Below are positions 1 to 63,502 of a DNA stretch of 64,000 nt, piece after piece; within the stretch, counting starts at the first letter, position 1; every line of letters starts with the position of its first letter. The notes beneath the pieces were generated by a model. The model ran no database searches and was not told the DNA's origin. It worked only from the letters and a program-made list of their open reading frames with translations. Source of the DNA: Knoellia koreensis (GTDB lineage: Bacteria > Actinomycetota > Actinomycetes > Actinomycetales > Dermatophilaceae). The stretch covers positions 550,976 to 614,975 of the forward strand of contig NZ_JABEPQ010000001.1 of assembly GCF_013041615.1 (NCBI RefSeq), given 5' to 3'. The translations under genes were made by a program, and so were the position numbers.

Positions 1-3000
1 CCCCGAGTCCTGCGGTCACGGCGAACGCACCGATGTGGTCGCGCAGCCCCGTCTCCTTGGGCGCGACGAAGTCCGACATGGCACGGTTCGGCACGCCCTC
101 GCGGTGCTGCCCCTGCTGCCGCAGCGTGTGCAACGTCAGCGCGACCGACTCACGCGACTCGTCGGCATACACCTCGATGTCGTCGCCCACGGCGTTGGCG
201 GGAAAGAGCCCGATGACACCCAAGGCGCGCAGCCACTTCTCGCGAATCGCCTTGTCCAGCATGCGGTTCGCGTCCTCGTAGAGCTTGGTCGCGGCCTCGC
301 TGGTGGCTGGGTTGTTGAGGATGTCGGGAAAGCGCCCCTTCATCTCCCACGCGAGGAAGAACGGCCCCCAGTCGATGTAGTCGCGCAGCTCCTCGAGCGG
401 GTAGTCGTGGAAGGTGCGGACGAACTGCGTGGGCACCTTGTTCTTTGCTCCGGACTGCCGCTGGAGAAGCTCCTTCTCCTGTGCCGCAACGAGATTGGGC
501 ACGTGTGGGCGGTATCCCGTCCAGTCCAGCGGGGTGCGTCGCTGGCGTGCCTGCTCGATGGACACCAGCGGCCGCTCGGTGGCCTTCGCCGCGTGGCGCG
601 CGCGCAGCGAGTCGTAGTCGGCGCTGACCTGCTCCAGCAGCTTGGGCCGCTGCTCGTCCGAAAGCAGCTGTGACACAACGGGAACCGAACGCGACGCGTC
701 CTTCACCCACACGACCGGGCCGTGGTACTTCTGGTCGACCTTGACCGCCGTGTGCGCCCTGGACGTGGTGGCGCCGCCGATGAGCAGCGGGATCTCGAGC
801 CCCTGTCGCTCCATCTCGGTGGCGAAGTTGACCATCTCGTCCAGGCTCGGCGTGATGAGGCCGGACAGCCCGATGACGTCGGCGTCCTCCGCCTTGGCGG
901 CGTCGAGGATCTTCTGCGCCGGCACCATGACCCCGAGGTCGACGACGTCGTAGTTGTTGCACTGCAACACGACTCCGACGATGTTCTTGCCGATGTCGTG
1001 GACGTCGCCCTTGACCGTGGCCATGACGACCTTGCCCTTGGCGCGCGCGTCGGCCAGGCCGCTCTCGGCCTTCTCCTCCTCCATGAACGGCAGCAGGTAG
1101 GCGACGGCCTTCTTCATCACACGCGCCGACTTCACGACCTGCGGCAGGAACATCTTCCCGGAGCCGAACAGGTCGCCGACGACGTTCATGCCGTCCATCA
1201 GCGGACCTTCGATGACCTCGATGTGACGTCCGCCGCGGGCGATGATCTCCTGGCGCAGCTCCTCGGTGTCGGTCTCGGCGTACTCGTCGATGCCCTTGAC
1301 CAGGGCGTAGGTGATCCGCTCGCCAACCGGCAGCGACCGCCACTCCTCGGCGATGGCTTCCTGCTTGGTGTCACCAGTGTTGAACGAGTCGGCGATCTCG
1401 AGCAGCCGCTCGGTCGAGTCCGGGCGCCGGTTGAGCACGACGTCCTCGATCCGCTCGCGCAGCTCGGGGTCGACCTGGTCATAGACGACGAGCGCGCCGG
1501 CGTTGACGATGCCCATGTCCATGCCGGCCTTGATCGCGTGGTAGAGGAACACTGCGTGGATCGCCTCGCGCACGGGGTTGTTGCCGCGGAACGAGAACGA
1601 CACGTTGGAGACGCCACCGGAGACCAGCGCCCCGGGCAGGTTCTCCTTGATCCATCGGGTCGCCTCGATGAAGTCGGTGCCGTAGGCCGCGTGCTCCTCG
1701 ATGCCCGTGGCCACCGCGAAGATGTTGGGGTCGAAGATGATGTCCTCGGCGGGGAACCCAACCTCCTTGGTGAGGATGTCGTAGGCCCGCTGGCAGATCT
1801 CCTTGCGGCGCTCGAGACTGTCGGCCTGCCCGTCCTCGTCGAACGCCATCACGACGATGGCGGCGCCGTACTTGCGGCACAGCCGGGCATGCTCTATGAA
1901 CGGCTCGACGCCCTCCTTCATCGAGATCGAGTTGACGATCGGCTTGCCCTGCACGCACTTGAGCCCGGCCTCGATGACCTCCCACTTGGAGGAGTCGACC
2001 ATGACCGGCACGCGCGAGATGTCGGGCTCGGACGCGACCAGCTTGAGGAACCGGTCCATCGCGGCGACGCCGTCGATCATGCCCTCGTCCATGTTGACGT
2101 CGATGACCTGCGCGCCGGCTTCGACCTGCTGCCGCGCGACGTTGAGCGCGGTCGGGTAGTCCTCGGCCTGGATCAGCTTGCGGAACCGCGCCGACCCCGT
2201 GATGTTGGTGCGCTCACCGACGTTGACGAACAACGACTCCTCGGTCACCGTCAACGGCTCGAGCCCCGACAGCCGCAGCGCCGGCTCCACCTCGGCGGGA
2301 ACCCGCGGCGCCTGACCGGCGGCGGCCTCCGCGATCGCCTTGATGTGCTCGGGCGTCGTGCCACAGCAGCCGCCGAGCAGGTTCACCAACCCCGACGACG
2401 CGAACTCCCCGACCACCGACGCCATCGCGTCCGGGGTCTCGTCGTACTCGCCAAAAGCGTTGGGCAGCCCCGCATTCGGGTAGCACGAGACGAAGGTGTC
2501 GGCCACGCGAGCCAGCTCCGCGGCATACGGGCGCATCTCCTCGGCACCGAGCGCACAGTTGAGCCCGACCGCGAGCGGCCGCGCGTGCCGCACGGAGTTC
2601 CAGAACGCCTCGGTGACCTGCCCCGAGAGCGTGCGCCCCGACGCGTCGGTGATGGTGCCCGAGATGATGACCGGCCAGCGACGGCCATGCTCCTCGAAGA
2701 GCGTCTCGAGCGCGAAGATCGCAGCCTTGGCGTTGAGGGTGTCGAAGATCGTCTCGACGATGAGGACGTCCGCCCCGCCGTCGACGAGACCACGTGCCTG
2801 CTCGAGGTATGCCGTGACGAGCTCGTCGTAGGTGACGTTGCGCTTTCCGGGGTCGTTGACGTCGGGCGAGATCGAGGCGGTGCGGTTGGTCGGGCCGAGC
2901 GCGCCCAGCACCCACCGCGGCCGGTCGGGCGTGGCGATGGCATCGGCCGCCTCGCGGGCGAGCCGTGCGGACGCGAGGTTGAGCTCGTAGGCGAGGTCCT

Positions 3001-3310
3001 CCATGCCGTAGTCGGCGAGGGAGATGCGTTGGGCGTTGAAGGTGTTGGTCTCGACGAGGTCGGCGCCCGCTTCGAGGTATGCCGCGTGGATGGCTCGGAT
3101 CGCGTCCGGCTGGGTGATCGAGAGGAGGTCGTTGTTGCCCTTGAGGTCCTGGCCCCACTCGGCGAACCGGTCGCCGCGGTAGTCCTCCTCGCTGAAGCCC
3201 TCGCGCTGGATCATCGTGCCCATGGCGCCGTCCATGACGAGGATCCGCTCGCGCAGGGCAGCGGTCAGCTCGTCGGTGGCGTCAGGACGGTGATCGGCGG
3301 TTTCGGGCAC
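1..3310 (-). CDS. metH: Cobalamin-dependent methionine synthase, 3' end cut by the contig edge
   Basis: Transfers the methyl group of 5-methyltetrahydrofolate to homocysteine through enzyme-bound cobalamin. About 1,100 codons are present of a family near 1,200, so only the end of the C-terminal reactivation domain is missing. In order: the homocysteine/zinc domain with an ETNTFN segment and the zinc-binding [10 protein letters not shown] near residue 314; the pterin-binding domain ([11 protein letters not shown]); and the B12 domain with GDVHDIGKN (DxHxxG) near residue 768. The start is taken as GTG 3310 because a CATACT box lies 6 nt upstream, the leaderless layout seen repeatedly in this window. 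It is divergent from the site-2 protease. No cobalamin riboswitch fits in the short gap. Confidence 0.95.
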
Positions 3311-3316
3311 CCGACC

Positions 3317-62129: not shown

Positions 62130-63427
62130 CGACGACGTGGCAGAACTGGGGACGCAGCGTGCGCGCCGAACCCGTGGAGGTCGCTCAGCCCGGCAGCGTG
62201 GGCGAGGTGGTCGAGGTCGTCCGCGGTGCGCGAGAGCGTGGGTTGACAGTCCGACCGGTTGGCGCCGGCCACTCGTTCACCGCCATCGCCGCGACGGACG
62301 GTGTGCTGCTTGATCTTTCGCGACTTTCGGGCGTGCTGGAGGCCGACATCGGCTCCGGTCGGGTACGCCTTGGCGCCGGGACCCACCTACACCAGCTGCC
62401 GGACCTGCTGGGCCCGCTCGGGCTGGCGCTGGAGAACATGGGCGACATCGACCAGCAGACCATCGCCGGGGCGATCTCGACGGGGACACACGGGACCGGT
62501 GCGACGTTCCGCGGGCTCGCGGCACAGGTCGTCGGGGTCACGCTCATCACGGCATCCGGCGACATTCTCGAGGTGGGGGAGGAGTCCAACGCCGACCTGC
62601 TTCCCGCGGTCGCGCTGGGACTCGGCGCCCTCGGCATCCTCGTCGACGTGACCGTGCAGTGTGTGCCGGCGTTCCTCCTGCGCGCGCACGAGAGCTCGGC
62701 CGGCCTCGAGGACGTGCTCTCGAACTTTGACGAGTTCGCCGTCGCCGACCACTTCGAGTGCTACTGGTTCCCGGGAACCTCGCGAGTGCAGACCAAGACC
62801 AACACCCGCGTGCCCATCGACGTCCCGCACCGGCCCCCGGGGCGCGTCGCCAGAACGCTCGACCAGCGGGTCGTGCAGAACGGGCTCCTGCGGGCGGTAT
62901 GCGAGATCGGTGTCGCCGCACCACGATTCACGCCGCCGCTCAACCGGCTGGCCACCCGCGTGCTTGGGGAGAAGGTCTACACCGACCGCTCGCACGCCGT
63001 GTTCACCAGCCCGCGCCACGTCCGCTTCCGGGAGAGCGAGTATGCCGTGCCGCGTGCGGCCCTGCCCGAGGCCGTCCGCGCCTTGCGAACGCTCGTCGAG
63101 CGCAACGCCTGGCGGATCAGCTTCCCGGTCGAGATCCGCGCGGCTGCGGCGGACGATCTCTGGCTGTCCACCGCGCACGGACGGGACTCCGGTTACATCG
63201 CCGTACACCGCTACTGGAAGGAGGACTACGTCCCGTACTTCAGGGCGTTCGACACCCTCATGCGCGACTTCGAGGGGCGACCGCACTGGGGAAAGCTGCA
63301 CTTCCAGGACTCCGAGTCGCTGGCGGGGGTCTACCCGAAGCTCGGTGACTTCGCGGCGGTCCGCGACCGGCTCGACCCGAACCGCCTTTTCGGAAACGCG
63401 TACCTGCGAAAGGTGCTGGGGGAGTAG
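62126..63427 (+). CDS. FAD-linked sugar-lactone (D-arabinono-1,4-lactone type) oxidase
   Basis: 433 residues. The FAD-binding PCMH domain (about 15-180) has VRPVGAGHSFTAIA and the flavin-contact motif GAISTGTHGTGATFRGLA. The C-terminal ALO domain ends in KLHFQDSESLAGVYPKLGDFAAVRDRLDPNRLFGNAYL with the HxK-type WGKLH element. It oxidises an aldono-lactone or alditol; the exact substrate is unknown. GTG 62126 overlaps the preceding stop. Confidence 0.88.
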   Translation: MTTTWQNWGRSVRAEPVEVAQPGSVGEVVEVVRGARERGLTVRPVGAGHSFTAIAATDGVLLDLSRLSGVLEADIGSGRVRLGAGTHLHQLPDLLGPLGLALENMGDIDQQTIAGAISTGTHGTGATFRGLAAQVVGVTLITASGDILEVGEESNADLLPAVALGLGALGILVDVTVQCVPAFLLRAHESSAGLEDVLSNFDEFAVADHFECYWFPGTSRVQTKTNTRVPIDVPHRPPGRVARTLDQRVVQNGLLRAVCEIGVAAPRFTPPLNRLATRVLGEKVYTDRSHAVFTSPRHVRFRESEYAVPRAALPEAVRALRTLVERNAWRISFPVEIRAAAADDLWLSTAHGRDSGYIAVHRYWKEDYVPYFRAFDTLMRDFEGRPHWGKLHFQDSESLAGVYPKLGDFAAVRDRLDPNRLFGNAYLRKVLGE

Positions 63428-63502
63428 CGCGTTCAGGCCCGGCCCGACCGGCAGGCGGAGGCACGGCCCCTCTCTGGCGTGCCCGCGGCATACGACCCTG
63501 CC

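Follow-up and report, generated by a model that had tools for sequence, protein, structure and literature searches.

To our knowledge, DNA-uptake sequences are known from the Neisseriaceae and Pasteurellaceae alone, and both families take up DNA through type IVa pili. The account of such sequences in PMC2734928 concerns Neisseria and the Pasteurellaceae, ComP is the receptor for the DNA uptake sequence (DUS) of the Neisseriaceae (PMC3630211), and no uptake sequences have been reported for mycobacterial species (PMC10526031); here and below, papers cited by PMC number are represented by the portions of their text that were consulted. Among actinobacteria, transformation of Micrococcus luteus requires ComEA/ComEC and two tad clusters (Angelov and colleagues, PMC4322843). 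We analyzed the octamer GTATGCCG in a 64-kb stretch of DNA (C1:550976-614975 of the 4.28-Mb genome G000; hereafter the window), where a first-pass annotation had likened it to uptake sequences and had stated that no such system is known in Actinobacteria. In line with that statement, the literature searched, which left subscription papers and preprints outside its scope, yielded no title on actinobacterial uptake sequences among the papers listed, and among the papers listed as containing the octamer string, none is on this subject by title. Because the word is non-palindromic, occurs about once per kilobase, is strand-balanced, has dialects with an invariant core, is sporadically absent from relatives and forms inverted pairs, we consider it probable that the Intrasporangiaceae and another family of their order have a DNA-uptake-sequence system, of which GTATGCCG is the spelling used locally.

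Abundance and strand balance of the octamer

An exact-word search found 67 copies of GTATGCCG in the window, 34 on the plus and 33 on the minus strand (the first at 163, the last ending at 63493), precisely the number and split counted by eye in the first-pass annotation. Shuffled versions of the window held 0.97 copies on average (standard deviation (SD) 0.89, largest 4 in 100 shuffles), and every TATGCCG and GTATGCC in the window falls within the octamer (67/67). The excess over chance that had been claimed extends far beyond expectation to the whole genome, which has 3,986 copies (1983:2003 by strand) and 114 of a reversed control word. We also examined 344 kb of contiguous sequence (the window plus 280 kb of G000), in which 320 copies were found against 1.6 expected under an order-3 model with the motif masked, an approximately 200-fold excess. 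As can be read from its letters, the word is non-palindromic; it is short, is equally frequent on the two strands at about one copy per kilobase and lies both inside and between genes, all traits of uptake sequences.

Gene calls came from an in-house method that scores codons and was tuned on the window; by this crude call the 320 copies comprise 65 intergenic ones, 2 on gene edges and 253 in coding sequence. The coding copies occupy five of the six strand-frame combinations (Tyr-Ala 135, Ala-Tyr 66, Val-Cys 0), with 149 in sense and 104 in antisense orientation. Antisense copies are somewhat commoner at gene ends (25, 14, 14, 23 and 28 along successive fifths of the gene), and sense copies are distributed flatly along genes. 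Within the window, 12 copies lie outside called genes, and four of them (at 163, 2521, 2807 and 3077) fall under long open reading frames (ORFs) missed by the gene caller, leaving the eight intergenic places that had been noted. A by-product of codon-pair or composition bias, for which one might cite the 201 of 253 coding copies in the Tyr-Ala and Ala-Tyr frames, has practically no chance of explaining the word: the intergenic copies, the spread over frames and the excess over the Markov model led us to reject it, as the first-pass annotation had argued from the several reading frames, and sibling genera of like guanine-cytosine (GC) content stay at background counts.

FtsK-orienting polar sequences (KOPS) and architecture-imparting sequences show strand skew relative to the origin and terminus. 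The octamer is split 157:163 over the 344 kb, and its eighteen 20-kb blocks span 7:11 to 16:10. A replication-polar motif was rejected on this balance, overall and per 20-kb block, with the origin not located, in keeping with the earlier argument from the strand split against Chi- or KOPS-like polar motifs. A Markov-like count, a strand bias and a codon pair restricted to coding sequence, the three outcomes named beforehand as speaking against an uptake sequence, all failed to appear.

Spread, dialects and competence genes among relatives

By its PafA protein, the nearest named loci to G000 are those of six Pedococcus/Phycicoccus genomes (86-90% identity). The window genome is thus a Pedococcus relative, and Pedococcus belongs to the Intrasporangiaceae, which we take to be the Dermatophilaceae of GTDB. 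We searched for GTATGCCG in 147 genomes of the order, 89 from this family (the window genome included) and 58 from 19 other families. Within the family, 52 of the 89 genomes carry 625 to 4,724 copies and the other 37 carry at most 293; all 58 genomes of the other families have at most 167, and the top one has 184 of the control word. A phylum-wide sample of 396 genomes included four from the family, three of them rich in the word (G000, G001, G044) and one not (G019), and its maximum outside the family was 386 (G504, 7.5 Mb, control word 176).

Several genomes without GTATGCCG hold a word one base away from it. These words emerged from a k-mer scan of one 6-20 kb stretch in each of 80 of the 89 family genomes (at comEC except in G015, G043 and G045; G083 lay outside the scan), and likewise from named loci. 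Whole-genome counts of GGATGCCG reached 3,816 in G026, 3,838 in G073 and 3,949 in G036, while G053 and G087 hold both GTATGCCG and GGATGCCG; GTATGCGG occurs 1,204 times in G030 and 878 times in G075. From sampled stretches alone, we found GAATGCCG in G022 and L057, GTATGACG in G013, G037 and G081 (accompanied by GTATGGCG in Flexivirga) and GTATGCCC in G056, and genomes with GAATGCCG, GTATGACG or GTATGCCC also carry GTATGCCG (1,025 copies in total in G022). All dialect words have G-N-A-T-G in common; dialects with an invariant core, next to related taxa without the word, are what uptake sequences display. The flanks also lean by lineage (G before and CG after in G000, A before and T after in Knoellia, C before and G after in G036; 23-46 intergenic copies each).

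A second family of the same order, f19, has at least 2,000 copies of GGATGCCG in 21 of its 33 genomes, a level reached by none outside f19 in that search. At least 1,000 copies occur in 31 of the 33, although 1,000-1,500 are also reached by certain large genomes from other families, and such counts alone are no proof. One f19 genome, G108, favours GGATGCCT (20 copies in 40 kb), and no strong word was seen in 20 kb each of G349 and G218. For the comparisons below, genomes with fewer than 300 copies of GTATGCCG and no dialect word were classed as motif-less (n = 32; G029 with 293 and G057 with 202 are the least clear). Neither congeneric genomes nor the orthologous loci of the alternation and aligned-site tests count as independent.

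Some candidate words were set aside. GTACGCCG is raised in G033, G049, G057 and G063 in the k-mer scan, and was dropped as a dialect because its reverse complement CGGCGTAC is likewise elevated where the system is lacking, in Nocardioides and other loci. Nocardioides GTTTGGTCA was rejected as part of an intergenic paired repeat, and a possible surplus of GGATGCCG in family f4 did not show up in a 20-kb stretch of G152. Separately, G011 of the own family has 1336 copies of GGATGCCG, about twice those of its congener G062 (614), possibly as a weak or recent dialect, although the word did not stand out in its 20-kb sample. At least 27 copies of GTATGCGG at a 61-bp period form a tandem or CRISPR-like array in a genome of a different family (G106:C1:28082-29676). 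Two Nocardioides loci (L064 of Nocardioides bruguierae and L071 of Nocardioides sp. GY 10127) hold 13 and 18 copies of GTTTGGTCACCAAC within 21 kb, the inverted pairs being spaced at 46 bp and the runs at 41 bp (e.g., L071:20953-21117); this is a repeat family like the repetitive extragenic palindromes (REP), unrelated to the octamer.

Conservation at orthologous positions, a check suggested at the outset, was assessed by aligning G000 with 16 near-relative loci (76-83% identity; each site counted once per relative). The octamer was perfect in the relative at 98 of 243 aligned sites (40%), against 27% for random words of the same GC content that were not matched for frame, and one-base differences were found at 40 of the 243 (16%; control 30%). 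The commonest such difference is GTACGCCG, which is synonymous in the Tyr-Ala frame. In our reading of these alignments, sites would arise by point changes in place and then be kept, with half-broken copies rare.

As the first-pass annotation had suggested looking for comEA, comEC and pilus genes, we examined the competence machinery of G000 and found ComEC, a ComEA-like protein and Tad clusters. ComEC (Competence domain, 6.8e-45) adjoins an HHH-domain protein of the ComEA type (6.6e-23). Six T2SSE ATPases exceed the cut-off and lie, by eye, within Tad-type clusters, one of which (L183) contains T2SSE, two T2SSF, Tad domains and TadE (over the cut-off once and below it once) by Pfam; a small pilin-like protein at L182 matches DUF4244. 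No PilT passed the TIGR01420 cut-off in G000, while G035 of the same family has one. By eye, the Tad clusters resemble the two that M. luteus needs (PMC4322843), and the pilin starts given in PMC6370729 resemble those at L183 and L182. Among relatives, the tad-1 TadE-like gene (E2) lacked a match at 1e-6 more often in motif-less genomes (9 of 32) than in those with the motif or a dialect (3 of 57; Fisher 0.007, although genera are not independent). Some of the matched stretches are interrupted by a stop codon, for instance in G014 and G069 (motif-rich) and in G033, G046 and G068 (motif-less). Three other candidate determinants were discarded. Presence of ComEC is near universal and so uninformative. 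The Flp/TadA cluster L181 shows no correlation with the motif, the best matches being at paralogue level (~40%) in motif-rich G014, G021, G069 and G077 and close in motif-less G011, G062 and G078. Loss of the tad-1 pilin genes in motif-less G078 was dropped when its TadE-like gene was found elsewhere.

Orientation of neighbours, inverted pairs and motif-free gaps

Neighbouring copies of the octamer tend to alternate in strand, which is a new observation. In the 344 kb, 221 of 319 neighbour pairs are in opposite orientation, against 159.9 (SD 8.8) with permuted labels (reached in 0 of 2000 permutations). At distances under about 1 kb, pairs in the same orientation are underrepresented (8 same and 59 opposite at 300-600 bp; 79 and 74 at 1000-1500 bp). 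Alternation is seen within genes (67 opposite, 25 same) and elsewhere (154 opposite, 73 same), and its z of 6.8 compares with a mean of -0.33 (SD 1.02, maximum 2.58) for 189 control words, each present 120-700 times in the 344 kb. Spacing along each strand is more even than chance, with a coefficient of variation (CV) of 0.69 on both strands versus 0.99 (SD 0.08) at random; in 1996 Karlin reportedly found the uptake sequences of Haemophilus to be evenly spaced per orientation.

The pattern recurs in other loci of G000 (51 of 83 opposite, P = 0.02), in congener comEC loci (57 of 95, P = 0.05), in 28 other loci of the family (190 of 308, P = 0.0005), in 33 named loci (263 of 423, 0 of 2000 permutations) and for GGATGCCG in G036 (77 of 125, P = 0.005). 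Four smaller dialect samples show a similar tendency but fall short of significance, and G139 counts against alternation, with 48 of 86 opposite (P = 0.19). From the alternation and the avoidance of same-strand neighbours within about 1 kb, it follows that the word probably acts with polarity, each strand being served separately.

Polarity of this kind also bears on a Chi-like function, in which a helicase-nuclease (RecBCD, or AdnAB in actinobacteria) reads a polar word that is required on both strands for two-ended break repair. Such a two-sided requirement would serve the strands separately and give the same alternation, and the octamer length fits; even so, we regard this explanation as improbable, and RecBCD-type Chi is disfavoured. 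The Chi sites known so far favour one of the replication strands, whereas the octamer has no strand skew, and a 200-fold excess with spelling changes between genera is unlike Chi as it is known. RecC was unmatched in all ten congeners, each with at least 625 copies of the word, and its matches are more frequent among motif-less genomes (18 of 32) than among motif or dialect ones (13 of 57). RecC is present in G000 itself (C10:305691-308915), though unmatched in these ten sampled congeners.

Inverted pairs at gene ends had drawn attention in the window; in the 344 kb, 12 of the 13 pairs less than 60 bp apart are inverted. Nine of the 12 are not wholly within a called gene and have predicted folds of -19.6 to -56.1 kcal/mol, and for eight of these nine only 0 to 7 of 200 length-matched random noncoding stretches fold as low. 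By computed folding, therefore, such pairs would form hairpins at gene ends, as uptake sequences do.

The contents of motif-free gaps were also examined. The largest in the 344 kb measure 8.9 kb (63.8% GC) and 6.8 kb (68.7% GC); the former (L199:9648-18534) holds Multi_ubiq, ThiF/DUF6791 and IrrE-type peptidase proteins and is possibly a ubiquitin-type defence island, and the latter holds a phage capsid and an HNH endonuclease. In G124 of f19, the largest gap in 160 kb spans 30 kb at 65.6% GC (rest 69.5%), with ORFs that look glycan-synthesis-like by eye. Contents were of mobile type in these three gaps, the three largest inspected, and so far as these three go they fit an absence of the word from DNA acquired recently, as expected of uptake sequences.

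These features bear on another explanation, modelled on the cyanobacterial highly iterated palindrome HIP1, whereby an orphan DNA methyltransferase or another chromosomal DNA-binding protein (in the nucleoid, in repair or in cell-cycle marking) recognizes the octamer or a part of it, and selection keeps the word. It would suit an exact word with few mutated relatives and with spellings and flanks specific to lineages, and HIP1 has been tied to orphan methylases (PMC4390886). We nevertheless judge it unlikely, if less so than a Chi-like role: the word is not palindromic, a methylase gives no evident reason for same-strand avoidance within 1 kb that exempts opposite-strand sites, and the inverted pairs and gap contents suit uptake better.

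Positions within the window were taken from the exact-word search and intergenic status from the window gene call. Two inverted pairs lie between two genes and form predicted terminator-like hairpins: 15288-15334 (intergenic arms 15288-15295 on the plus and 15327-15334 on the minus strand; -43.6 kcal/mol, with 0 of 200 random noncoding stretches as low) and 33364-33399 (intergenic arms 33364-33371, plus, and 33392-33399, minus; -35.2 kcal/mol, 1 of 200). The pair at 9696-9762 (-38.2 kcal/mol, 7 of 200) has one arm in a called gene, its copies being 9696-9703 (plus, intergenic) and 9755-9762 (minus), and the pair at 26783-26822 (26783-26790, minus; 26815-26822, plus) is inside a called gene. 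Further intergenic copies are 45028-45035 (plus) and 63486-63493 (minus), with 58404-58411 (minus) intergenic or on a gene edge, and those under the ORFs missed by the gene caller are 163-170 and 2521-2528 (minus) and 2807-2814 and 3077-3084 (plus). The other plus-strand copies are at 7529-7536, 7640-7647, 10605-10612, 11749-11756, 13591-13598, 18600-18607, 21967-21974, 23548-23555, 23716-23723, 26536-26543, 26947-26954, 28911-28918, 28953-28960, 29100-29107, 30362-30369, 31381-31388, 31787-31794, 35505-35512, 37674-37681, 39385-39392, 42536-42543, 43562-43569, 48462-48469, 54874-54881, 55830-55837, 57856-57863 and 63040-63047. The other minus-strand copies are at 4223-4230, 5846-5853, 8486-8493, 9902-9909, 12559-12566, 14687-14694, 16830-16837, 18205-18212, 21165-21172, 22734-22741, 24821-24828, 28287-28294, 29348-29355, 30571-30578, 35927-35934, 39154-39161, 42649-42656, 44881-44888, 47228-47235, 48897-48904, 52321-52328, 53922-53929, 56429-56436, 60807-60814 and 62001-62008. 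The window also contains a Pup-proteasome cluster (5584-14197; proteasomal ATPase, the Pup ligase PafA and proteasome subunits), whose PafA served as the anchor for relatives.

The uptake-sequence reading and known systems

The interpretation of the octamer as an uptake sequence, first proposed from the window, draws partial support from density, strand symmetry, inverted pairs, dialects, motif-free gaps of mobile type and the comEA-comEC genes with Tad clusters. Uptake, a receptor and a direction of entry are what we infer from these patterns. A fuller version, which we advance tentatively and at somewhat less than even odds, is that much of an actinobacterial order practises sequence-tagged transformation driven by Tad pili, with family and genus dialects of a G-N-ATG-based octamer, and that the tag sets the direction of entry, so that neighbours alternate and the tags of each strand form a separate, evenly spaced set. 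In the main reading, the word on free DNA would be bound by ComEA or by a protein of a Tad-type competence pilus, uptake would proceed one way from it through ComEA/ComEC, and DNA of kin would be recombined into the chromosome. DNA bearing the word would be taken up more often, and recombination would then keep repairing and spreading it; biased uptake and recombination would account for thousands of sites with no need for each to be strongly selected. If entry is polar, a same-strand copy within one fragment length would be redundant and an opposite-strand copy would not, which may yield the alternation.

Several observations weigh against the uptake reading. ComEC occurs in 139 of the 147 genomes, motif-less ones included, and is no predictor of the motif; all seven tad-1 genes are present in seven of eight motif-less loci examined, and in the eighth, G078, at least the tad-1 TadE-like gene sits 40 kb away. 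Conversely, the TadE-like gene was unmatched in three motif or dialect genomes (G027, G036 and G075), and no receptor for the word was identified. Words with one mismatch show just a mild enrichment in the 344 kb (210 versus 164 expected with the motif masked), more weakly than for the uptake sequences of Haemophilus and the gonococcus (PMC1939737). When strand is ignored, spacing is not clearly even (CV 0.92 versus 1.00 at random, P = 0.07), there is no alternation in G124 of f19 (86 of 173 opposite), and for one of the nine inverted pairs not wholly in a gene, an intergenic one, 119 of 200 random stretches fold as low, no better than random. Orientation is reported to be without effect on uptake in Haemophilus influenzae (PMC1939737), and in the text consulted no description of strand alternation was found for the uptake sequences of Neisseria or Haemophilus.

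If the uptake reading holds, the octamer would be a third, independent case of uptake sequences, in Gram-positive Actinomycetota and on a different pilus. It would imply that DNA tags for kin arise repeatedly in evolution and that transformation is frequent in bacteria not known for it. The dialects would serve as natural experiments in a search for the receptor, the alternation of strands hints that uptake direction is set by the tag, and adding the octamer to donor DNA might ease work with such strains.

Among described systems, HIP1 is likewise an octamer at very high copy in one clade and nearly absent from some members, but it is palindromic, poses no question of strand and is tied to orphan methylases (PMC4390886), whereas the octamer here is non-palindromic. 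M. luteus is also an actinobacterium, and its ComEA/ComEC and two tad clusters, with no other pilus genes (PMC4322843), are matched in G000 by ComEA/ComEC and several Tad-type clusters; uptake-sequence terms are absent from the consulted text of PMC4322843 and PMC8467076. The uptake signal sequences of the Pasteurellaceae share the spacing of about 1 kb, an orientation that is commoner in genes (here sense, 149 to 104), the inverted pairs at gene ends and the existence of dialects, two in that family (PMC7811141, PMC12616744, PMC1939737, PMC2346458); they differ in the pilus, with no PilT over the cut-off in G000.

Comparison with the DUS of the Neisseriaceae gives both differences and likenesses. 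The DUS has 10-12 bases, against eight with weak, lineage-specific flanks here, and the strand alternation and the Gram-positive cell wall set our case apart. It works with a type IV pilus bearing the minor pilin ComP (PMC6370729), while a type IVa pilus with PilT, as goes with ComP, was not found over the cut-off in G000. The Neisseria DUS ATGCCGTCTGAA (PMC2346458) and GTATGCCG share ATGCCG, which may be chance. In both, a non-palindromic word is present in thousands of copies, has dialects built on an invariant short core, is missing altogether from some relatives and forms frequent inverted pairs, which in the Neisseriaceae are linked to terminators (PMC3630211).

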